NCBI GenBank assembly: GCA_027307045.1 | Contig: DAHUXR010000007.1 | Span: 1-64,000 of the forward strand | DNA: 64,000 nt | Direction of reading: 5' to 3' | Source: Acidobacteriaceae bacterium | GTDB taxonomy: Bacteria > Acidobacteriota > Terriglobia > Terriglobales > Acidobacteriaceae | Shown here: positions 38,864 through 50,705 of the stretch, piece by piece | Layout of the letters: each line of letters starts with the position of its first letter | How positions within the stretch are numbered: the stretch's first letter is position 1 | Position numbers and translations under genes: made by a program | Notes under the pieces: model-generated | What the model saw: only the letters and a program-made list of their open reading frames with translations | What the model was told of the DNA's origin: nothing | Databases searched by the model: none

Positions 38864-38951
38864 CACTTGATCCCTCACGATTTGTACAACAACCCTCTGT
38901 TTGCGATATGATTCGCGGTCAGCCTTCCTATTACCCGCAGGAGTATTCCCG

Positions 38952-41900
38952 ATGAAGACACTGTTTAAGATGATTTTTGTATTGGTCCTGGCGTTGTGCG
39001 TTCCCGCATTACTCATGGCCCAGAGCAAGACCGGCGATCGCACCAAGAAAAGCGGCAGCGGAAACGCGCAAAAGCCGTTGGCAAATTCGGAGAAAAAAAC
39101 GTCTGATGCTGGTGACAAAGACGCAAAATCCACAACGCCAACCAGGCTTGAGGACAACAAGTCCAAAGACCCACTGGAGAATGTGAAGTTCCGCAACCTG
39201 GGGCCGGCGGTTGGTGGCGGGCGCGTGACGTCGGTCGTCGGTATTCCCGGGCGGCCTAACGTGTATTACGTGGGAGCGGCGGGCGGCGGCGTTTTCATGA
39301 CGCAGGATGGCGGCCTCTCATGGAAGCCAATCTTTGAGAAAGAACCCACAGCTTCCATTGGAGCCATTGCGATTGCGCCTTCCAACCCGAACCTGATCTG
39401 GGTGGGAACCGGCGAGAAGAATATCCGCAATGACGTGATTACTGGCAAGGGAATCTTCTTCTCTCCTGACGCGGGAACCACGTGGAAACATATGGGCCTG
39501 CGCGATGCCGGGCAGATCTCAAACATCGCAATTGATCCGCGCGATCCCAACACTGTCTTCGTCGGCGTGCTGGGCCATGCGTGGGGACCGAACGCCGATC
39601 GCGGCGTTTTCCGGACCACAGATGGCGGCAAAACCTGGCAGAAGGTCCTGTTCATTGACGAAGACACAGGCGCAAGCTCGCTGATCATGGACCCGGGCAA
39701 TCCCATGGTGCTCTTTGCCGGAATGTGGCGGGTTCGGCGTTATCCCTGGGCGCTTGAATCGGGCGGGACCAGCGGCGGCATCTTCCGGTCGACCGACGGC
39801 GGCAATACGTGGAAGAAGCTGACAGAAGGCCTGCCGACAGAGCCTACAGGCCGCATCGGACTGGGCGCAGCGCCCAGCAACCCCCGGCACGTTTATGCGC
39901 TGGTGGAAAACAAGAAAGGCACGCTCTACGACACCAACGATCTTGGTGACCATTGGAAAATGGTGAGCAATAACCACAATCTTGCAGCACGTGGATTTTA
40001 TTTCAGCGAACTAGAAGTTGCGCCGAATGACGAGAACAAAGTTTATTTCATGTCATTCAACGTAATGCTTTCTGAGGATGGCGGTAAAACTGCGCGCAAC
40101 ACCACACCTCGCGTCCATGTGGACCATCACGCCTTGTGGATCGATCCGGAGAACCCAAACCGGATCATCAACGGCAATGACGGCGGCGTTTATGTGAGTG
40201 GTGACGCTGGCAAGACCTGGCGCTATCTGGACAACCTGCCGATCGAGCAGTTCTATTCCGTTGCCGACGACGATGAGACACCCTACAACCTCTGCGGCGG
40301 CCTGCAGGACAACAATGGCTGGTGTGGACCTTCGAACAGCCTGAGCCGCGGCGGCATCAGCGGCTTTGAGTGGTACACGGTGACCGGCGGCGATGGCGAA
40401 TACGTTGTCCCAGCGCGCGGCAAGGGTACACATGTGGTTTATACCGATTCGCAGAATGGGTCGATCCAGCGCGTGAGCAATGATACGGGCATGTCAAACT
40501 TCATCCGTCCGTACTTGCAGGGCGTGCAGTCCATGAAGCCGTCAGATCTAAAGTATCGGTTTAACTGGACGTCGCCGATAGCGGTTTCTATGACCAATCC
40601 GAATGAAGTCTATCTGGGCGGCAACGTGTTGTTCCGGTCCACCGATGGCGGAAAAAACTGGAATCCGATCAGTCCGGACCTTACTCGCAACGACAAGACG
40701 AAACAGCAAAGCAGCGGCGGCCCGATCTGGCTGGACCTGAGCGGCGCGGAAACAGTTGGCGCGATTCTTTCCATGTCGATTTCACCGGTGGATCCCAAGA
40801 CGATCTGGGTGGGCACGGACGATGGTCTGGCGCAGGTGACACGCGATGGCGGCCAAAACTGGACGAACGCGACTGCCAATATCGCGAACCTGCCGCAGTG
40901 GGGCCGTCTGCAACAGATTGAGGCTTCACCCATCGATGCCAACACCGCATATATCGCAGTGGACTTCCACGAGGTGGAAAATAACAAGCCATACGTTTAC
41001 AAGACCCACGATGGCGGCAAGACGTGGACTTCAATTGCAGCCGGCCTGCCTCAAGAGGATCCCGCGCGCGTGATTCGCGAAGATCCGAACAAGAAGGGCT
41101 TTCTGGTGCTGGGCACGGACACAAGCCTGTTCTATTCGAGTGACGACGGCGCGCATTGGACGCAGATCAAGAGCGACTTCCCCACTGCCTCAGTCTATGA
41201 CATCAAGTTCATCAAGAAGTCACATGACCTGGTGGTGGCGACGCACGGACGGGGCCTGTTCGTTCTGGATGACATCACGCCGCTGGAAGAAAGCGGCTCC
41301 GAATTGGCGCGGAGTGATTTCCACTTGTTCCCTTTGTCTCCTGCTATTAATTGGCACAACTGGAACAAGCACGGCTTTGCCAGCGGCGGATATGTTGCCC
41401 CCAATCCAATGAGCGGCGCCGTGATCACTTACTGGCTGCCAAATGAAATAAAAGAAGATGCCGGTGGACCGCCCAGGCGCAGGCCCAACGGCGAGACAGC
41501 GGTAAAGATCACCGTGACGGACAGCAGCGGGCAGGTGGTCCGCACCATGTATGGACCAACAAAGTACGGCCTGAATCGTGTGGCGTGGAGCCTGCGTTAT
41601 GACGGGCCAAAGAAGCTGAATTTCCTGCCTCCGCCGGAAGGGTTGGGCGACCAGGATTTCTTCTTTGATCCCGGCATCGGGCCAAATGCATTGCCGGGGA
41701 CATACAAAGTGGCGGTAACCGTAAACGGCAAAACGGAAACGCAAACGGTCGATGTCCAGACTGATCCGCGTTTTAAGTTTGACCCGGAAGGCATGCGGGC
41801 GCAGTTAAAGCTGGGATTGGAACTGCGCGATGAGGTCTCAGCCTTACATGAAGCTCTGAACCGGCTCAACGGCCTGCACAAACAGATCACCAGCCTGCAA

Positions 41901-42359
41901 GAACTGCTGGGCACCGAGGAAGGACAGCAAGACGGCGCGACCAGCGCTCCCTACAAACCAGTATTGGAGGAGGCGAAGGCACTGGACAAGAAAATCGCAT
42001 CCATCCAGGAACCGCTCTATAACAATGACGTTCAACCCGGCAGCCAGGATGATATCCACTATCTGCAACGCTTCCAGAACCGCCTGCAAGGGGTAATGCG
42101 CGGCGTAATGGGTGGTCCCGGGGAAGCGCCGAGTCCGCTGCTGGTTTCGGAGGCGGCAGAGGTCCACAAAGAACTGGAAACTCAACTGGCGCAGGTGAAC
42201 ACTTTCCTGACCACTGAAGTCACGGCGTTCAATAAGAAGGCGGCGGAACACGGTTCGAGCACGCTGTTCGCGGGCGGGCCCATCCAGATCAAATCCGGCG
42301 CGGGAGCGGCGTCAAGCGCCAGCACCGGCCAGGACGAAGAGCAGGACGAGCAGGACTAA
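38952..42359 (+). CDS. Secreted Asp-box beta-propeller protein (VPS10/BNR-like), paralogue 1
   Basis: From ATG 38952 (after CAGGAG) the product is 1135 residues with a signal peptide (KMIFVLVLALCVPALLMA). The body is a ring of Asp-box (BNR) repeats of the form S/T-x-D-G/A-G-x-x-W: TQDGGLSW, SPDAGTTW, TTDGGKTW, STDGGNTW, SGDAGKTW, STDGGKNW, TRDGGQNW, THDGGKTW, SSDDGAHW. That is typical of sialidase/sortilin-type propellers, here probably two, followed by a beta domain and a C-terminal coiled region ending in GQDEEQDEQD. It is homologous to the protein at 47520-50705. Glycosidase or peptide-binding activity is not established. Confidence 0.85.
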   Translation: MKTLFKMIFVLVLALCVPALLMAQSKTGDRTKKSGSGNAQKPLANSEKKTSDAGDKDAKSTTPTRLEDNKSKDPLENVKFRNLGPAVGGGRVTSVVGIPGRPNVYYVGAAGGGVFMTQDGGLSWKPIFEKEPTASIGAIAIAPSNPNLIWVGTGEKNIRNDVITGKGIFFSPDAGTTWKHMGLRDAGQISNIAIDPRDPNTVFVGVLGHAWGPNADRGVFRTTDGGKTWQKVLFIDEDTGASSLIMDPGNPMVLFAGMWRVRRYPWALESGGTSGGIFRSTDGGNTWKKLTEGLPTEPTGRIGLGAAPSNPRHVYALVENKKGTLYDTNDLGDHWKMVSNNHNLAARGFYFSELEVAPNDENKVYFMSFNVMLSEDGGKTARNTTPRVHVDHHALWIDPENPNRIINGNDGGVYVSGDAGKTWRYLDNLPIEQFYSVADDDETPYNLCGGLQDNNGWCGPSNSLSRGGISGFEWYTVTGGDGEYVVPARGKGTHVVYTDSQNGSIQRVSNDTGMSNFIRPYLQGVQSMKPSDLKYRFNWTSPIAVSMTNPNEVYLGGNVLFRSTDGGKNWNPISPDLTRNDKTKQQSSGGPIWLDLSGAETVGAILSMSISPVDPKTIWVGTDDGLAQVTRDGGQNWTNATANIANLPQWGRLQQIEASPIDANTAYIAVDFHEVENNKPYVYKTHDGGKTWTSIAAGLPQEDPARVIREDPNKKGFLVLGTDTSLFYSSDDGAHWTQIKSDFPTASVYDIKFIKKSHDLVVATHGRGLFVLDDITPLEESGSELARSDFHLFPLSPAINWHNWNKHGFASGGYVAPNPMSGAVITYWLPNEIKEDAGGPPRRRPNGETAVKITVTDSSGQVVRTMYGPTKYGLNRVAWSLRYDGPKKLNFLPPPEGLGDQDFFFDPGIGPNALPGTYKVAVTVNGKTETQTVDVQTDPRFKFDPEGMRAQLKLGLELRDEVSALHEALNRLNGLHKQITSLQELLGTEEGQQDGATSAPYKPVLEEAKALDKKIASIQEPLYNNDVQPGSQDDIHYLQRFQNRLQGVMRGVMGGPGEAPSPLLVSEAAEVHKELETQLAQVNTFLTTEVTAFNKKAAEHGSSTLFAGGPIQIKSGAGAASSASTGQDEEQDEQD

Positions 42360-42443: not shown

Positions 42444-44417
42444 TTATTTTACTGAAGTGAGAACTGAAGACGAGTTTGATCGAGTTTCTTCGCCGGAATT
42501 ACGGCGCATATGGCCGCTACGGTGACGCCATTCGTTGGCGCGGAAGGTTCGCTGTGGCTGTTCGGCCTGAAACTTTTCACCGATTACAACACCAAGCTGA
42601 TGGGCGCTGCCCTGAAGAACATTGAGATTTTCAGAAGTAAACGCATCAGGTTGCAGGGCATACACAGAAAGGACTCCAACAGTGCAGCCTGCATAGGACA
42701 AAGGCACGGCTAAAGCTGAGCACAGCGCAAAGCTTCGCGACCCTTCAAGGCCGGGTTCAACCTTGGGATTGCCATTGATGATGTAGTTTCCGGTTTCGGC
42801 CACCCAGCCAGCCAGTCCCTGTCCGTTGCGAATTCGCAAAGAAGAGAGGTGGCGAACGTTCTCGCCCATAACAAAACGCGGAATAAGTACGTCCTCCTGC
42901 AGCGCAAAGACTGCCATCGCATCAAAAGGCACCAGATGACGAAGGCGTAGGACAGCCGCAGAAAGCGTCTCATCAAGAGTCAGAGGATCCTCAGTCCGGT
43001 TGAGTACGTCAGTTAGCTTCAATCCTGGCTGCGATTGAGCGGAAGGCGCAGCGCTGGCGGCAAAGCCCGCATCGGGCGCAGCACCGCGTTCGACCTTTAC
43101 GTCGAGTGAGAGCTTGGGACGTTCCTCAGGCGCTTGCGAGCGCGCCAGATGCTCTAATTCTATGTATCGCGCCTGCAAAGCGGCGACAACGCGGGGATCG
43201 AACGCTTTCCCCGACTCGCGAACAACGTGTGCCATGGCTTCATCCAGCGGCAAAGCACGGCGGTACTGCCGGTCGGAAGCAAGCGCGTCGAGGCAATCAA
43301 CGGCAGAGAGAATGCGCGCGCCAATAGGAATGGCTTCACCGGAAATACCATCCGGATAACCGCTGCCGTCCCACTTTTCATGATGGGAGTGCACAATGGG
43401 CGCAACCGGATAGGGGAACCTGACCTGTTCAACAATTTCCGCGCCCACAATGGGGTGAATCTTCATTTTCTCAAATTCTTCAGGCGTCAATTTGCCCGGC
43501 TTGGAAATAATTGACTCGGGAACAGCAAGCTTGCCGATATCGTGGAGCACGGATGCAGCTTGCAAGGCCTGCAGTTCCGATGGCGATAACCCAAGGTCCT
43601 TACCCAGTTCCATCGCATAAACGCGCACACGCTGAAGATGATCTCCGGTGGTATGGTCTTTGGCTTCAATTGCCAGCGCCAAAGTTTCAATCGTGCGCAT
43701 GTTCAAGGAAGCCAGGTCTTCAAGATGCCGCTTCTCGTCTTCCCATCGTCCAAGATGCATGCAGTATGAACGGTAGATCGCGTAGACGGCCGGCAAAACC
43801 AGGATCGACATTTCCCACCCGGCCAGCCGGTTCACAAACTGGATAAGGCCTGCGATTGCTGCGCCAATCAGATAATAAGGAAACGTCCAGGAGTAACCTG
43901 TATCCCATTTGTTGATGATCGAAGTGTTCTCCGCCAATGCCACAACGGCTGCAACGGGAAAGCTATTCAACAGGAAGTAAACGACCGCCGCCACAAGCAG
44001 CGGCAAGGGAGCGCGCGAGTGGAAGACGTGACTGAATAGCACCACGTAAGTCCAATAGGCGGCCGTGATGGCCAGCGACACTTGAGAAAGATTGAAGGCG
44101 AAATGCACAAAACTGAGCCGCTTTTTCGTCCGCCAGAAACACTGGACTATTGTGGCAACCAGAGCCAGGGCAAGCGTCTCAGAGATCGTCATATTGCAGA
44201 TGCCGACGAGGAAGAAAACGAAGTTTACGGATACTGTGCCTTCAGACGCGGGCAGAACCGTTTTCAATGCAGAAGCCACAACAGTGAGCAGAAGATAGGA
44301 AGGAAACAGGAAGGTATGGCTACTCCGCCATGGAAGCACACCGGTGAGCAGACTCAGCGCGCCAAATGCGCACACCAGAAATACGAACGGTCTCGCCCGA
44401 ACCGGAATTCCGGACAT
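42444..44417 (-). CDS. Membrane HD-GYP phosphodiesterase with GAF domain
   Basis: A 657-residue protein in three parts. Residues 1-220 hold about seven membrane helices (a sensor of MASE type or similar). Residues about 235-420 are an HD-GYP domain: HTTGDH at 255-260, HDIGKL (His292, Asp293), HHEKWDGSGYP (His345, His346, GYP 353-355) and PIGARILSAVDCLDAL. Residues about 468-620 are a GAF domain. HD-GYP domains hydrolyse cyclic di-GMP (or cGAMP in some clades), so it should lower the second-messenger level in response to a membrane or cytosolic signal. The residue set looks complete. It lies between the two propeller genes on the opposite strand. Confidence 0.9.
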   Translation of the reverse strand: MSGIPVRARPFVFLVCAFGALSLLTGVLPWRSSHTFLFPSYLLLTVVASALKTVLPASEGTVSVNFVFFLVGICNMTISETLALALVATIVQCFWRTKKRLSFVHFAFNLSQVSLAITAAYWTYVVLFSHVFHSRAPLPLLVAAVVYFLLNSFPVAAVVALAENTSIINKWDTGYSWTFPYYLIGAAIAGLIQFVNRLAGWEMSILVLPAVYAIYRSYCMHLGRWEDEKRHLEDLASLNMRTIETLALAIEAKDHTTGDHLQRVRVYAMELGKDLGLSPSELQALQAASVLHDIGKLAVPESIISKPGKLTPEEFEKMKIHPIVGAEIVEQVRFPYPVAPIVHSHHEKWDGSGYPDGISGEAIPIGARILSAVDCLDALASDRQYRRALPLDEAMAHVVRESGKAFDPRVVAALQARYIELEHLARSQAPEERPKLSLDVKVERGAAPDAGFAASAAPSAQSQPGLKLTDVLNRTEDPLTLDETLSAAVLRLRHLVPFDAMAVFALQEDVLIPRFVMGENVRHLSSLRIRNGQGLAGWVAETGNYIINGNPKVEPGLEGSRSFALCSALAVPLSYAGCTVGVLSVYALQPDAFTSENLNVLQGSAHQLGVVIGEKFQAEQPQRTFRANEWRHRSGHMRRNSGEETRSNSSSVLTSVK

Positions 44418-44653
44418 TTTCTCTCCAACATCTAATCAGGGCACAAGATTGTCTGGCGCATTTTCAGCCCAAAGGCATCGGCCAGCAAGAGGACTTTAGT
44501 AACTGCATCCGAGAGGGCGTCAGCTGTGACGTCTCTGTCACATGGCGGTGACAACGCGCGAACCCTCGCGTTACCGCTCCTATGGTTCGACCACACCAAT
44601 GTCTTTATTTGCAACAAGTTACAGAGATTCCAGCATTGGCCCGGCAAGTGCAA

Positions 44654-44696: not shown

Positions 44697-46469
44697 ATGA
44701 TGAAAAGAATCTTGATTCTCGCTCTGGCACTTTTGGCGCCACTATCGATGTTCGGAGACAGCAGCAAGATTTCGCCCGACTTGCAGAACTCAAGTTCCAC
44801 GGGCCAGATGCAGCAGGTAGTGGTCCAATACGCGCCAGGCACTCAACTGAGTTGCAGCGGCTTGCTGGGGCTGGTGGGCTGCGTCGTAAATGACGTGCTT
44901 AAGCTGGGCGGCACCATCCTCGGCCAGCTACCAATCGTGAATGGATTAGTGGCATCTCTGGACTATAACGGGATTGTATCTCTCTCAAATCAGTCCAACG
45001 TTGTATACATCAGCAAAGACCGGCCTCTTACTCCATTCTTTGACAACGCAGCGCCGGCGGTGAACGCATCGGCAGCCTGGCAATCAAACTATACCGGAGC
45101 GGGAATTGGCGTAGCGCTGATTGATAGTGGGGTGAACAATCACCCGGATTTGGCGACAACGGGTCTGCTGCCTCTTTCACGGATCGTTTACAACAAGAGC
45201 TTTGTACCGGGCGACTCCAGCGCGGCGGACGCCTACGGCCATGGCACGCACATTGCCGGACTGATTGGGGGCAACGGAATAAGCTCAACCGGGCTCATCT
45301 ATTCAAATACCTTTCGAGGCATTGCGCCGGGAGTGCAGATCGTGAACCTGCGGGTGCTCGACGCGAACGGGAGCGCGACGGACAGCTCGGTGATTGCAGC
45401 CCTTAACCAGGCGGTGGCCCTCAAGTCGCAATACAACATCCGGGTAATCAATCTTTCGCTTGGACGCGGGGTATTTGAGACCTACAAGCTGGATCCGCTT
45501 TGCCAGGCCGTAGAAAAGGCATGGAAGAGCGGGATTGTTGTTGTGGTGGCAGCCGGCAATAATGGGCGCTACCTGCCCACCAGCGGATACGCCACTGTAA
45601 CGTCCCCGGGGAATGACCCTTATGTTCTTACCGTGGGCGCAATGAAACCAATGGGAACGCCCCAGCGCTCAGATGATTTGATCGCCAGCTACAGTTCAAA
45701 AGGGCCCACAATGCTTGACCATGTGGTAAAGCCTGACTTGGTAGCGCCGGGAAACCTTCTGGTGTCAACGGAAACCAGTAATACAAATCTGTATAACACG
45801 GAGTTGAGCAACCGAGTGCCTTACGGCGCTTATGTCTATGGCGGATCATCAAGCCCTTCAAAAGTGTATTTTGAATTGAGCGGCACCAGCATGGCAACGG
45901 GGGTGGTGAGCGGCGCAGTGGCTGACCTTTTGCAGGCGCATCCGTCTTTAACGCCCGATCAGGTAAAAGCCAGGCTGATGAAGACCGCTTCCAAGGCGTT
46001 CCCGAATACCAGCAGCGTTTATGATGCCGCCAGCGGCATTACTTACACCAGCCAATATGACATCTTCACCGTTGGAGCCGGCTATGTTGACCTTGCAGCC
46101 GCGCTGGCCAGCAATGACTTGCCGAGCGGCACAGCAATGTCACCGACGGCAATTTACGATTTGAGCACCGGAAATGTTCGCCTGACCAGTGATTCCTCAT
46201 CTGTGTGGGGCACTTCACAAACATGGTCCGGACCTGCGGTTTGGGGCACTACACAGTTTACCGGTAGTTCGATCATGTGGGGTGCAACCTCTTCAAGTGG
46301 TTCATCCATTATGTGGGGCGCCAACGGCTTATGGGGCAGTTCCATCATGTGGGGTGCCAACACATCTTCAGGATTCTCCACAATTTGGAGCAACAGCATC
46401 ATGTGGGGCGCCAGTGGACAGTGGGCCAGCAGCATCATGTGGGGTGCCAGCGCAGATAAAGGGGAGTAG
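44697..46469 (+). CDS. S8 serine peptidase (subtilase) with C-terminal hexad Trp-Gly repeat
   Basis: The 590-residue protein has a signal peptide (residues 1-20), a propeptide-like part, and a subtilisin catalytic domain with Asp143 (VALIDSGVN), His182 (GHGTHIAG), Asn288 (AAGNNG) and Ser398 (LSGTSMATG). After residue 500 comes a tail with Trp at 504, 510, 516, 528, 540, 546, 552, 564, 570, 576 and 582: an exact six-residue lattice, with Ser or Thr at the skipped positions, and Gly usually next (W-G-A/S/T-x-x-I/M). That suggests a short beta-solenoid or a repeated surface-binding strip. It is probably secreted or surface-attached; the tail may anchor it. A terminator follows. Confidence 0.92.
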   Translation: MMKRILILALALLAPLSMFGDSSKISPDLQNSSSTGQMQQVVVQYAPGTQLSCSGLLGLVGCVVNDVLKLGGTILGQLPIVNGLVASLDYNGIVSLSNQSNVVYISKDRPLTPFFDNAAPAVNASAAWQSNYTGAGIGVALIDSGVNNHPDLATTGLLPLSRIVYNKSFVPGDSSAADAYGHGTHIAGLIGGNGISSTGLIYSNTFRGIAPGVQIVNLRVLDANGSATDSSVIAALNQAVALKSQYNIRVINLSLGRGVFETYKLDPLCQAVEKAWKSGIVVVVAAGNNGRYLPTSGYATVTSPGNDPYVLTVGAMKPMGTPQRSDDLIASYSSKGPTMLDHVVKPDLVAPGNLLVSTETSNTNLYNTELSNRVPYGAYVYGGSSSPSKVYFELSGTSMATGVVSGAVADLLQAHPSLTPDQVKARLMKTASKAFPNTSSVYDAASGITYTSQYDIFTVGAGYVDLAAALASNDLPSGTAMSPTAIYDLSTGNVRLTSDSSSVWGTSQTWSGPAVWGTTQFTGSSIMWGATSSSGSSIMWGANGLWGSSIMWGANTSSGFSTIWSNSIMWGASGQWASSIMWGASADKGE

Positions 46470-46708: not shown

Positions 46709-47476
46709 GTGAGCGTACTACGCAGCATTTTGGCAAGTCTCGTTTGTTTCATCGCACTGAACGGCTACGCCCAGACTGCCGAGGAACTGGTGGCGAAAAA
46801 TCTGCAAGCCAAAGGCGGAGTGGAGAAGATCAAGGCGATCAAGTCACTCCGCATGATCGGTGATTTTGATGCGGGAGGTTTCAAAGCCACCGTGGGCGAA
46901 CTAAGCAGGCGTCCGGACATGGTGAAAGAAACCTTTACCCTTCAGGGAATGACCCAGGTCCAGGCATATGACGGGTCGAGCGGGTGGCAGATCTCGCCGT
47001 TCGGCGGCCGCAAGGACCCGGAGATGCTGGGTGAAGATGACGTTCGTGGCCTTGCGGAGGATGCAGACTTTGATGGCCCCCTGGTGGATGCCGCGGCCAA
47101 AGGCAACAAAATCGAATATCTGGGCCACGACCAGGTGGATGGCGATGATGCTTACAAATTGAAAGTCACGCTGAAAAACGGCGACATCTTTTACTACTAT
47201 CTTGACCCGGACACGTACATTGAAATTCAGGTTGAAAAACAGCAGTTTATCCGCGGCTCAGTGCGTGAGAGCGTGACGATGCTGGGGTCATACAAGCCGG
47301 TGAATGGCGTGATGTATCCGTTTTTCATTGAGAGCGGGCCCAAGGACAACCCGGAACGGCGCGGAAAAATTACGGTGACCAAGATGGAAGCGAATGTGCC
47401 CATTGAGAACAGTGAATTCAAGATGCCCGCCGCTCCTGCCGCGTCTCCTGCCGCCAAGTCCACACCCAAACAATGA
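46709..47476 (+). CDS. Exported LolA/outer-membrane lipoprotein-sorting-like protein
   Basis: The 255-residue product starts at GTG 46709 behind AAGGAG and has a signal peptide (RSILASLVCFIALNGYA). The mature part resembles LolA-fold proteins found next to secreted hydrolases: TAEELVAKNLQAKGGVEKIK at the start, strands such as YKLKVTLKNGDIFYYYLDP, DTYIEIQVEKQQF, and GVMYPFFIESGP at the end. Lipoprotein or lipid binding is the family role; here it is only inferred. It lies 43 bases upstream of the second propeller gene and is likely co-transcribed with it. Confidence 0.7.
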   Translation: MSVLRSILASLVCFIALNGYAQTAEELVAKNLQAKGGVEKIKAIKSLRMIGDFDAGGFKATVGELSRRPDMVKETFTLQGMTQVQAYDGSSGWQISPFGGRKDPEMLGEDDVRGLAEDADFDGPLVDAAAKGNKIEYLGHDQVDGDDAYKLKVTLKNGDIFYYYLDPDTYIEIQVEKQQFIRGSVRESVTMLGSYKPVNGVMYPFFIESGPKDNPERRGKITVTKMEANVPIENSEFKMPAAPAASPAAKSTPKQ

Positions 47477-47519
47477 GCGCATAAAAACACGTACTGGATA
47501 TTTTGAGAGGAATTTCATA

Positions 47520-50500
47520 ATGATGCTTGCCCGCTATACCTTCTTTCCTGTGCGCTCGACCGCTGCGTTTGCACTCCTGTGTGCTCTTTGCCTGGCCGTT
47601 TCAGCTCAAACGCCCGCGCCGGTGAGATACGATTCCGGCACCATCTCCGGATTGGCGGCAAGAAACATTGGCTCCGCCACCATGGGTGGACGAATTTCCG
47701 CCATCGACGCCGTGGATGAAAATGGCAAGATCACTGCATTTGTGGGATCAGCCAGCGGAGGCGTATGGAAGTCCATCAATGGCGCCACAACTTTCAAGCC
47801 GGTGTTTGACCGTGAACCTGTACAGTCGATCGGAGCAGTAACCATTGATCCTTCAAATCACAAAAATGTCTGGGTGGGAACAGGAGAAAGCTGGACCAGA
47901 AACAGCGTTTCCATCGGCAATGGGATTTACAAATCGACCGATGGCGGCGAGAACTGGACCAACATGGGATTGAAAGACTCAGAACACATCGCGCGCATCC
48001 TGGTTGATCCCAAAGACAGCAACACAGTGTATGCCTGCGCCACAGGGCATCTGTGGAACGACAATGATGAGCGTGGCGTTTACAGGACGACTGACGGCGG
48101 CACGAATTGGAAAAAAGTATTGGCCGGAGCCAATGGCTCAACCGGCTGCGGTATGCTGACTGCAAATGCCCAGGAGCCGAAAACGATTTACGCGTCCATG
48201 TGGGACTTCCGCCGCCAGGGATGGACGTTTCGTTCTGGCGGGCCGGGCAGCGGACTATTCAAGAGCACAGATGGCGGCGACCACTGGACGGAAATCGCGC
48301 CCAGCAACAGCCAGGGACTGCCGGAAAAGCCCTACGGAAGAATTGCTCTGGCAGTAGCGCCTTCCAAGCCAAACGTGGTTTACGCCATGATCGAAAGCAA
48401 GCAGAGCGCGCTCTACCGCTCAGACGACGCGGGCAAAAGCTGGAAAAAACTGGATGCCAGCCAGTACATGGTGTGGCGTCCGTTTTATTTTGCCAACCTG
48501 ATTGTTGACCCCAAGAATGAAAACAAGCTCTTTAAAGTAGACCTGGTGCTGCTGGTCAGCGTCGATGGCGGACGCAGCTTCAGTTCAACAGCAAACACGC
48601 ACAGTGACAACCACACCGTGTGGATTGACCCAAGCAATACCAACTTGGTTTATGACGGTGATGACGGCGGATTCTGGAGCAGCACTGACGGCGGCACCCG
48701 TTGGGCACGCGCATGGAACCTGCCAACCGCGCAGTTCTATCACGTAAGCGTTGATAATGCGAACCCATATCACGTTTATGGCGGGCTGCAGGACAACAGC
48801 ACATGGGTAGGCGATTCATCGTATCCCGGCGGCATTACCAATTCGCGATGGGAGAATGTCCTTGGTGGTGACGGTTTCTGGGCATTTGAAGACCCGGCTG
48901 ATCCGGACTACATATACGCGGAATCGCAGGGCGGAGAAATCGGAAGAGTCAATCGGCACACGCTGAGCGGTCAGGGCATTAAGCCACAGCCGCAATACAA
49001 CGAAAAGAAGCTGCGCTTCAACTGGAACACGCCGATCCACATGAGCCCGAATGAAAAAGGGACGATTTATATTGGCGCACAGTTCCTTTTCCGTTCGCGC
49101 GACCACGGCCATTCATGGGAACGCATCTCCCCCGACCTTTCCACCAACGATCCGGAGAAGCAGAAGCAGGAGGAGTCCGGCGGCATTACCGTGGACAACT
49201 CTGCGGCAGAAATGCACACGTCAATCTATTCAATCAGCGAGTCGCCAAAAAATGGCCAGTTGATCTGGGTGGGTACCGACGACGGCAACCTGCAGATTAC
49301 GCGCGATGGCGGAAAGCACTGGACCAATGTGGTGGACAAAGTCCCGAACCTGGGCAAGAACTCGTGGGTATCCACGGTAATTGCCAGCCATTTCAATGAA
49401 GGTACGGCATACGCCACGTTTGATCGCCACACCTTTGGCGACATGAAGCCCTATATCTACAAGACAACCGATTTCGGCAATACGTGGACTCCGCTGGTGA
49501 GCGACGCCAGCGGCGTGACTGGATATGCGCACGTCATCACTGAAGACACGGTCGACTCCAACCTGCTATTCCTGGGAACCGAGTTTGGCTTATGGATCTC
49601 CATTGATGGAGGCAAGCAATGGGCGCAATACAAGGGCAGCGGATTCCCTGCCGTGGCAGTGCGTGACATTGTTATTCAGCCGCGCGAGTCTGATTTGGTA
49701 TTGGCCACGCACGGGCGCGGCATCTGGATCATTGATGACATTTCGTCGTTGCGCGCGCTCACGCCGGACTTGATGGCCCAGGACGCCGTGCTGCTGGATT
49801 CCACCAGCATACAGTACCTGAATTCCAATGGCGGCTGGCCGGAAGGAGATGCCACATTCTCAGGTCCAAGCCGCACACAAGACGCCTTCATCACCTACTA
49901 CCAGAAAGGTCGCCATATTTTCGGCGATATGAAAATCGAAATTATCGACCTGAATGGAAAGGTGATGGACACCATCGCGGGCAGCAAACATCGCGGCATC
50001 AATCGGACAACGTGGTCAATGCGGCTGAAACCGCCTACCGTTCCGCCTGCTGCCAGCGCGGCGTTCGGCGCCTCCACGGGACCGCGCGTTTTGCCGGGAA
50101 CCTACACCGTAAAAATGACCAAGGGCGATAAGGTTTACACGTCAAAGCTCAAACTGGTGCTGGATCCGCGCGCGCCCTATGACGAACAGGACCGCCACCA
50201 GCAATTTGATCTGGTGATGAAACTCTACAACATGATGGGACGCATGAGCTTTGCCGTGGATTCCATGGTGAATCTGCGCGATGCTGCCAATGCGCGCACA
50301 GCTAAACTGCCGGCCAACGATCCTTTGCGCAAGATTGTGCAGGAGCTTGCGCAACAGGCTGATGCACTGCGCTCCAAGATTGTGGCAACCAAGGAAGGCG
50401 GCGCAATCACGGGTGAAGAGCGCATCCGCGAATACCTGACCAGCGTTTACAGCGACGTGAACAGCTACGATGGCAAGCCCACCAACTCGCAAATCGAGCG

Positions 50501-50705
50501 CACGGACGCGCTGGGGCGTGAACTGGATGACGTTATTAAAGAGCTGGATCAACTTACAACCAAACAGCTGCCGGCCATCAATTCCGGCCTGCAGAAGATG
50601 AAGCTAGGGCCCATCCAGCCTCTGACGCAACAGCAATGGGAGAAAATGCACACGGGAAATACTGGCTCGCAACCGGGAATGATGGGGATGCGAGAGCGCG
50701 ACTAG
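47520..50705 (+). CDS. Secreted Asp-box beta-propeller protein (VPS10/BNR-like), paralogue 2
   Basis: From ATG 47520 (behind GAGAGGA) the product is 1061 residues with a signal peptide ending near AVSAQ. Repeated Asp boxes include STDGGENW, TTDGGTNW, STDGGDHW, SDDAGKSW, STDGGTRW, SRDHGHSW, TRDGGKHW, TTDFGNTW and SIDGGKQW. The same order of motifs as in the protein at 38952 (WVGTGE early, YGGLQDN in the middle, ATHGRGIWIIDD near the end of the propellers) marks them as paralogues. A C-terminal helical part follows. Function is unknown beyond a secreted propeller. Confidence 0.85.
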   Translation: MMLARYTFFPVRSTAAFALLCALCLAVSAQTPAPVRYDSGTISGLAARNIGSATMGGRISAIDAVDENGKITAFVGSASGGVWKSINGATTFKPVFDREPVQSIGAVTIDPSNHKNVWVGTGESWTRNSVSIGNGIYKSTDGGENWTNMGLKDSEHIARILVDPKDSNTVYACATGHLWNDNDERGVYRTTDGGTNWKKVLAGANGSTGCGMLTANAQEPKTIYASMWDFRRQGWTFRSGGPGSGLFKSTDGGDHWTEIAPSNSQGLPEKPYGRIALAVAPSKPNVVYAMIESKQSALYRSDDAGKSWKKLDASQYMVWRPFYFANLIVDPKNENKLFKVDLVLLVSVDGGRSFSSTANTHSDNHTVWIDPSNTNLVYDGDDGGFWSSTDGGTRWARAWNLPTAQFYHVSVDNANPYHVYGGLQDNSTWVGDSSYPGGITNSRWENVLGGDGFWAFEDPADPDYIYAESQGGEIGRVNRHTLSGQGIKPQPQYNEKKLRFNWNTPIHMSPNEKGTIYIGAQFLFRSRDHGHSWERISPDLSTNDPEKQKQEESGGITVDNSAAEMHTSIYSISESPKNGQLIWVGTDDGNLQITRDGGKHWTNVVDKVPNLGKNSWVSTVIASHFNEGTAYATFDRHTFGDMKPYIYKTTDFGNTWTPLVSDASGVTGYAHVITEDTVDSNLLFLGTEFGLWISIDGGKQWAQYKGSGFPAVAVRDIVIQPRESDLVLATHGRGIWIIDDISSLRALTPDLMAQDAVLLDSTSIQYLNSNGGWPEGDATFSGPSRTQDAFITYYQKGRHIFGDMKIEIIDLNGKVMDTIAGSKHRGINRTTWSMRLKPPTVPPAASAAFGASTGPRVLPGTYTVKMTKGDKVYTSKLKLVLDPRAPYDEQDRHQQFDLVMKLYNMMGRMSFAVDSMVNLRDAANARTAKLPANDPLRKIVQELAQQADALRSKIVATKEGGAITGEERIREYLTSVYSDVNSYDGKPTNSQIERTDALGRELDDVIKELDQLTTKQLPAINSGLQKMKLGPIQPLTQQQWEKMHTGNTGSQPGMMGMRERD

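Follow-up and report, generated by a model that had tools for sequence, protein, structure and literature searches.

The nearest solved S8 subtilase with a C-terminal extension is Tk-SP (3afg, 9ues). It has the catalytic domain, the propeptide layout and PF00082 in common with the protease described here, but it lacks the Trp-Gly hexad array of the latter, and no match of Tk-SP to the window tail was found. A six-residue period is known from the left-handed β-helix hexapeptide proteins LpxA/LpxD and YdcK, which also share with the tail the Gly and Asn/Asp beside a hydrophobic position. In the tail, however, Trp replaces Ile/Val/Leu, and neither a Hexapep match nor a confident fold is present. 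The RRNPPA tandem pheromone propeptides Phr3T and Phr105 (PMC11343458) resemble the array in their repeated short peptides, the involvement of extracellular proteases and, in the general model, Opp-type import; here, in contrast, the repeats lie within the protease itself, the phyla are different and no cytoplasmic Rap-type receptor was identified. The fourth point of comparison is the group of MASE9-containing GGDEF, HD-GYP and histidine kinase proteins, whose domain type and outputs are also those of the gene product encoded next to the protease. A full-text literature search on MASE9 returned nothing relevant and no published secreted-protease partner, and a search with the repeat, its motif letters and acidobacterial subtilases returned no description of the tail. 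None of the Pfam and NCBIfam models covers the tail.

The analyzed window is a stretch of 64,000 nucleotides. The following features are considered.

44697..46469, + strand: S8 subtilase gene, 590 aa (open reading frame), with a signal sequence/propeptide-like region (about residues 1-110), the catalytic domain and the Trp-Gly hexad tail
45096..46007, + strand: catalytic S8 domain, residues 134-437 (PF00082, E 6e-52)
46197..46466, + strand: C-terminal tail, residues 501-590, with 11 Trp at a six-residue step (from the Trp positions)
46245..46262, + strand: TTQFTG, residues 517-522, corresponding to a conserved V-F-x-x-G element at which many relatives show a one-residue phase shift
44637..44652, + strand: sigma-54-like promoter TGGCCCGGCAAGTGCA, 9/11 consensus positions with GG/GC present, lying 60 nt upstream of the S8 start codon
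42444..44417, - strand: divergent neighbor, 657 aa, with a MASE9-like membrane domain (PF20972, residues 74-215), HD_5 of the HD-GYP type (PF13487, 249-410) and GAF (PF13185, 479-612)
43773..44201, - strand: MASE9 sensor region of the divergent neighbor (PF20972, E 1.7e-4)

The HD-GYP/subtilase pair is flanked by genes at 38901-42359 and 47394-50705, each of which encodes a Sortilin-Vps10/BNR protein about 1100 aa long.

The protease and its Trp-Gly tail

The PF00082 match scored 177 bits against a cut-off of 21.8. The residues D143 (DSG), H182 (GHGTH), N288 (AAGN) and S398 (GTSM) were invariant in 47 aligned sequences, and by its PF00082 match and its Asp/His/Ser triad with Asn the protein is assigned to the S8 peptidases. 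The AF2 model of the catalytic domain was confident, and pro-Tk-SP (3afg) was its closest structure in Foldseek. A hydrophobic stretch is present at the N terminus; from sequence, the protease is predicted to be exported and active.

The protein contains 13 Trp, at residues 128, 276, 504, 510, 516, 528, 540, 546, 552, 564, 570, 576 and 582. The original prediction of an exact six-residue lattice was borne out: from 504 to 582, each of the 11 tail Trp falls on a multiple of six (p = 8.3e-11 for one shared phase among 79 positions). It had also stated that Thr or Ser occupies the skipped lattice positions, which holds for T522, S534 and S558, and that Gly usually follows Trp, which is the case for 8/11 (Ser follows two and Ala one). 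The 92 tail residues include 23 Ser, 15 Gly and 11 Trp, and charge is nearly absent. Only five good unit copies are found in the window tail, whose units are not identical to each other. Tandem Repeats Finder reported no DNA repeat at the tail even at a minimum score of 30, and the tail Ser residues are spread over six different codons; the window tail is thus not a product of fresh DNA slippage.

Scanning of genome contigs yielded 66 relatives. About 50 belong to Acidobacteriota and carry a Trp-Gly tail; the Bacillota relatives among the 66 end without one. The repeat unit is [S/N/D/T/G]-[A/V/I]-[V/I/L/M]-W-G-[D/N/T/S/A]. In the common layout, three hexads precede the V-F-x-x-G element, followed by two or three hexads, a T-T-x-G-F filler, further hexads and a C-terminal G-[ED] motif. 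The filler holds the Trp spacing at 12, and fillers are unrelated in sequence and are not copies of the unit. Among 417 Trp-Trp spacings in 56 tails, 292 were 6, 60 were 12 and 20 were 13, the last falling mostly at the V-F-x-x-G element. The absence of any insertion that breaks the phase, noted earlier, holds for the window copy and does not extend to its homologues: relative L003, 79% identical to the window protein, has one spacing of 13, and only 14/56 tails keep a single phase throughout. Phase-breaking indels are present in the other 42/56, which have mixed phases, and the breaks cluster at the V-F-x-x-G element (13-residue steps) and at linkers (19-30). The claim that the six-residue period is under constraint is nevertheless supported, as 352/372 spacings of 12 or less (about 95%) equal 6 or 12 and the units stay alike despite synonymous divergence.

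In 297 Acidobacteriota genomes searched with a codon-blind array pattern, such arrays were found in several distant families. An S8 domain precedes the array in 10/10 proteins scanned (nine from the codon-blind search plus L065). In a second phylum, that of L065 and probably Armatimonadota, the family occurs in 25/151 genomes, where the arrays include WGDNAV and WGDQAL. No real array was found in 249 Bacillota genomes, where the single match was rejected as a simple DNA repeat. Most pattern matches in viral contigs were rejected because they arose from reading frames open by chance or belonged to different repeat families. KAGWGIEAG-like hexad arrays in viral contigs L129, L150, L152, L164 and L221 apparently form a separate repeat family. 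Tandem pairs of W-tail subtilase genes occur at L018, L026, L034, L035, L046, L251 and L259, several with differing units, and at L052 (3914-5588) and L017 (5742-7567) such genes are split between two frames, through gene breakage or faulty assembly. The tail is a C-terminal repeat region under selection in one subfamily of presumably secreted S8 peptidases.

Units of the same protein have similar amino-acid sequences, while their synonymous sites have mostly diverged by about 0.5-1.0 per site. In several proteins all units share one and the same five-residue core (identical cores occur in L013, L015, L026 and L052), at about 0.7-1.0 synonymous differences per site in a crude count. Between relatives the whole unit changes: SIMWGA (window) becomes SVMWGT (L003), SNALWG (L004) corresponds to SNVLWG (L005) and NSAVWG (L016) to DSAVWG (L022). 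When five units of the window protein and L003 were matched by flanking anchors, I→V and A→T were found in 5/5. The Ser codon class was retained in the same 5/5, a result from only five units with a chance of about 0.1, and it argues against gene conversion as the sole cause of unit uniformity. Gene conversion may act in this way, and the runs of identical 18-nt units in L016, which represent recent 18-nt duplications, are in its favor. Since these duplications stand beside unit uniformity despite synonymous divergence, turnover and selection both act on the arrays. At the C233 locus, which carries the second W-tail S8 gene of the window genome, the units of the orthologues differ mutually and are retained position by position. 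With uniform repeat units alongside diverging synonymous sites, the arrays constitute a natural experiment in the maintenance of unit uniformity.

Linkage to MASE9 sensors and sigma-54-like sites

The divergent neighbor in the window matched PF20972 with 22.4 bits, just under the cut-off of 24.3. The MASE9 match at L002 was also just under the Pfam cut-off; the family profile built here was strong for MASE9, and the MASE9 neighbors at the paralogue locus and at others exceeded the PF20972 cut-off. MASE9 was matched three times in the window genome: next to the window S8 gene, next to the second W-tail S8 gene, and 6.6 kb from that second gene. A MASE9-like gene flanks the protease at 23/51 acidobacterial loci (L003-L053, many contigs being incomplete) versus 0/11 tail-less Bacillota relatives, and the two genes are mostly divergent, with MASE9 upstream, or codirectional. 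Among 61 related genomes, 16 encode both families, 2 W-tail S8 alone, 3 MASE9 alone and 40 neither (Fisher 6e-10, kinship ignored). In the same genomes 19/31 MASE9 matches have a W-tail S8 gene no more than 10 kb away, again in counts that ignore kinship. The second phylum repeats the pairing (L247, L252, L255). A weak correlation of unit type with MASE9 distance persists after S8 distance is taken into account (partial Mantel r 0.21, p 0.027). The outputs of the MASE9 partner vary and comprise HD_5 plus GAF, HD_5 plus GAF plus GGDEF, a histidine kinase or none.

Sigma-54-like sites were found upstream of 14/47 W-tail S8 relatives versus 1.1 expected, and of none on the reverse strand. The gene order at C233 is a PilZ sigma-54 activator, MASE9-HD_5-GAF-GGDEF, two permeases, SBP_bac_5, an ABC ATPase, the W-tail S8 protease, MASE9 alone and an M50 peptidase. 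Parts of this order recur at many loci, and the fuller loci add an oligopeptide ABC importer and the PilZ-sigma-54 activator. Sigma-54 activators with a C-terminal PilZ domain lie beside the protease cassette at L260 (2564-3841) and L264 (2346-3836). Such PilZ-bearing activators possibly provide a direct c-di-GMP link to sigma-54 transcription.

Candidate roles of the array

The constant elements of these loci are the S8 domain, the Trp-Gly array and, most often, MASE9, whereas the outputs vary; recognition of the array by MASE9 would be the simplest mechanism that joins them. We tentatively propose that the array is an extracytoplasmic recognition element for a MASE9 partner within an undescribed protease-signaling system. 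Outside the cytoplasm the array would act as a multivalent element for recognition or docking, and its reader would be the MASE9 membrane domain in the neighboring signaling protein (HD-GYP/GGDEF, histidine kinase or MASE9 alone). The presence or state of the protease would thereby be coupled to c-di-GMP or kinase signaling, and sigma-54 activators downstream of that signaling would control the protease and, at fuller loci, the oligopeptide importer. Physical binding of the tail to MASE9 and the direction of signaling are inferred. Linkage of the genes alone would also be expected if a secreted protease were simply co-regulated with a peptide importer. Moreover, many tail-bearing loci have no MASE9 gene within about 4 kb, and in distant Acidobacteriota the neighbor of the W-tail S8 gene is often another regulator, namely a sigma-54 activator with other inputs or a GGDEF/HD_5 protein. 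Of the roles considered in the original prediction, an anchor, understood broadly as docking to a membrane partner, is favored by the MASE9 linkage, whereas an autotransport or sorting signal found no support: Pfam detected only S8 in the protein, and no translocator or sorting family was among the NCBIfam matches.

A self-folding β-solenoid, either a left-handed β-helix or a new hexad type with Trp ladders, would have no connection to MASE9 and would provide a structural domain or one that binds the envelope or a substrate. As the explanation of the array it appears doubtful, although a solenoid fold as such is compatible with MASE9 docking and the two are not exclusive. The period of six, the unrelated fillers that hold exactly 12 and the conserved V-F-x-x-G element are all in line with a solenoid. 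Structure prediction with AF2, however, gave pLDDT values of only 29-39 at residues 522-590 of the window protein, modeled with 47 homologues, and of 20-38 in the tail of L016, the most regular relative with 15 hexads. These values are disorder-like and tell in part against the suggested fold. Because AF2 over-predicts β-solenoids for repeats (PMC11795689), its negative result carries some weight, which is limited by the small alignments. Hexapep (PF00132) matched none of five tails at E up to 10, and other Pfam matches were weak and mixed. In PDB searches the regular tails of relatives retrieved mainly left-handed β-helix proteins, mostly weakly (best E 8e-5), and the one reversed tail used as a control retrieved none; the window tail likewise matched no left-handed β-helix protein. 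In a permutation control against six own-genome helix proteins, the native unit order ranked 14-80 among 60-120 orders. Since permuted orders scored like the native one, the matches of the relatives' tails are not specific; cyclic reorderings scored equally, and the PDB matches with their clean reversed control were rejected as specific evidence for a left-handed β-helix. The earlier suggestion of a compact helix of this type is accordingly not upheld by the pLDDT values, the Hexapep search or the permutation control. In viral contig L209 (13884-14354), hexads VWGNAQVWGNAR match the left-handed β-helix protein YdcK (2f9c) with E 1e-13, and this β-helix family does carry Trp-Gly-Asn hexads.

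Improbable in our estimate is a multi-copy precursor of Trp-Gly hexapeptide signals carried on the protease, from which proteolysis would free peptides to be sensed by the adjacent MASE9 protein or imported by the oligopeptide transporter. Tandem pheromone propeptides cut by extracellular proteases provide a precedent (PMC11343458). The units are identical or nearly so within several proteins and differ between species, as in the 5/5 replacements between the window protein and L003 with their retained Ser codon class, and the tail is predicted to be unfolded. The neighbors include an oligopeptide importer, a site-2-type protease and membrane sensors, but the importer may be simply nutritional. 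No spacer or cleavage motif is present between the units, conserved non-repeat elements and the C-terminal G-[ED] motif accompany them, the orthologues of the paralogue hold different units at fixed positions, and the window tail offers only its five good copies. If this reading were true, Acidobacteriota and the second phylum would possess a cell-cell signaling system that feeds c-di-GMP and sigma-54 control.

A low-complexity extension of little function, its phase held mainly by 18-nt slippage, would account for the identical 18-nt runs of L016, the freely varying copy number and the low pLDDT, but has a similarly small probability, given that W-G is kept across two phyla while synonymous sites diverge, that fillers hold the spacing of 12 without being unit copies and that the tail is confined to one S8 subfamily with linked sensors.

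Docking of the Trp-Gly array to MASE9 remains our tentative preference. Should MASE9 indeed recognize the tail, an orphan sensor domain of the membrane would gain a candidate ligand. The pair would then form a testable protease-to-c-di-GMP circuit in soil bacteria, in which cell-cell signaling is poorly known.
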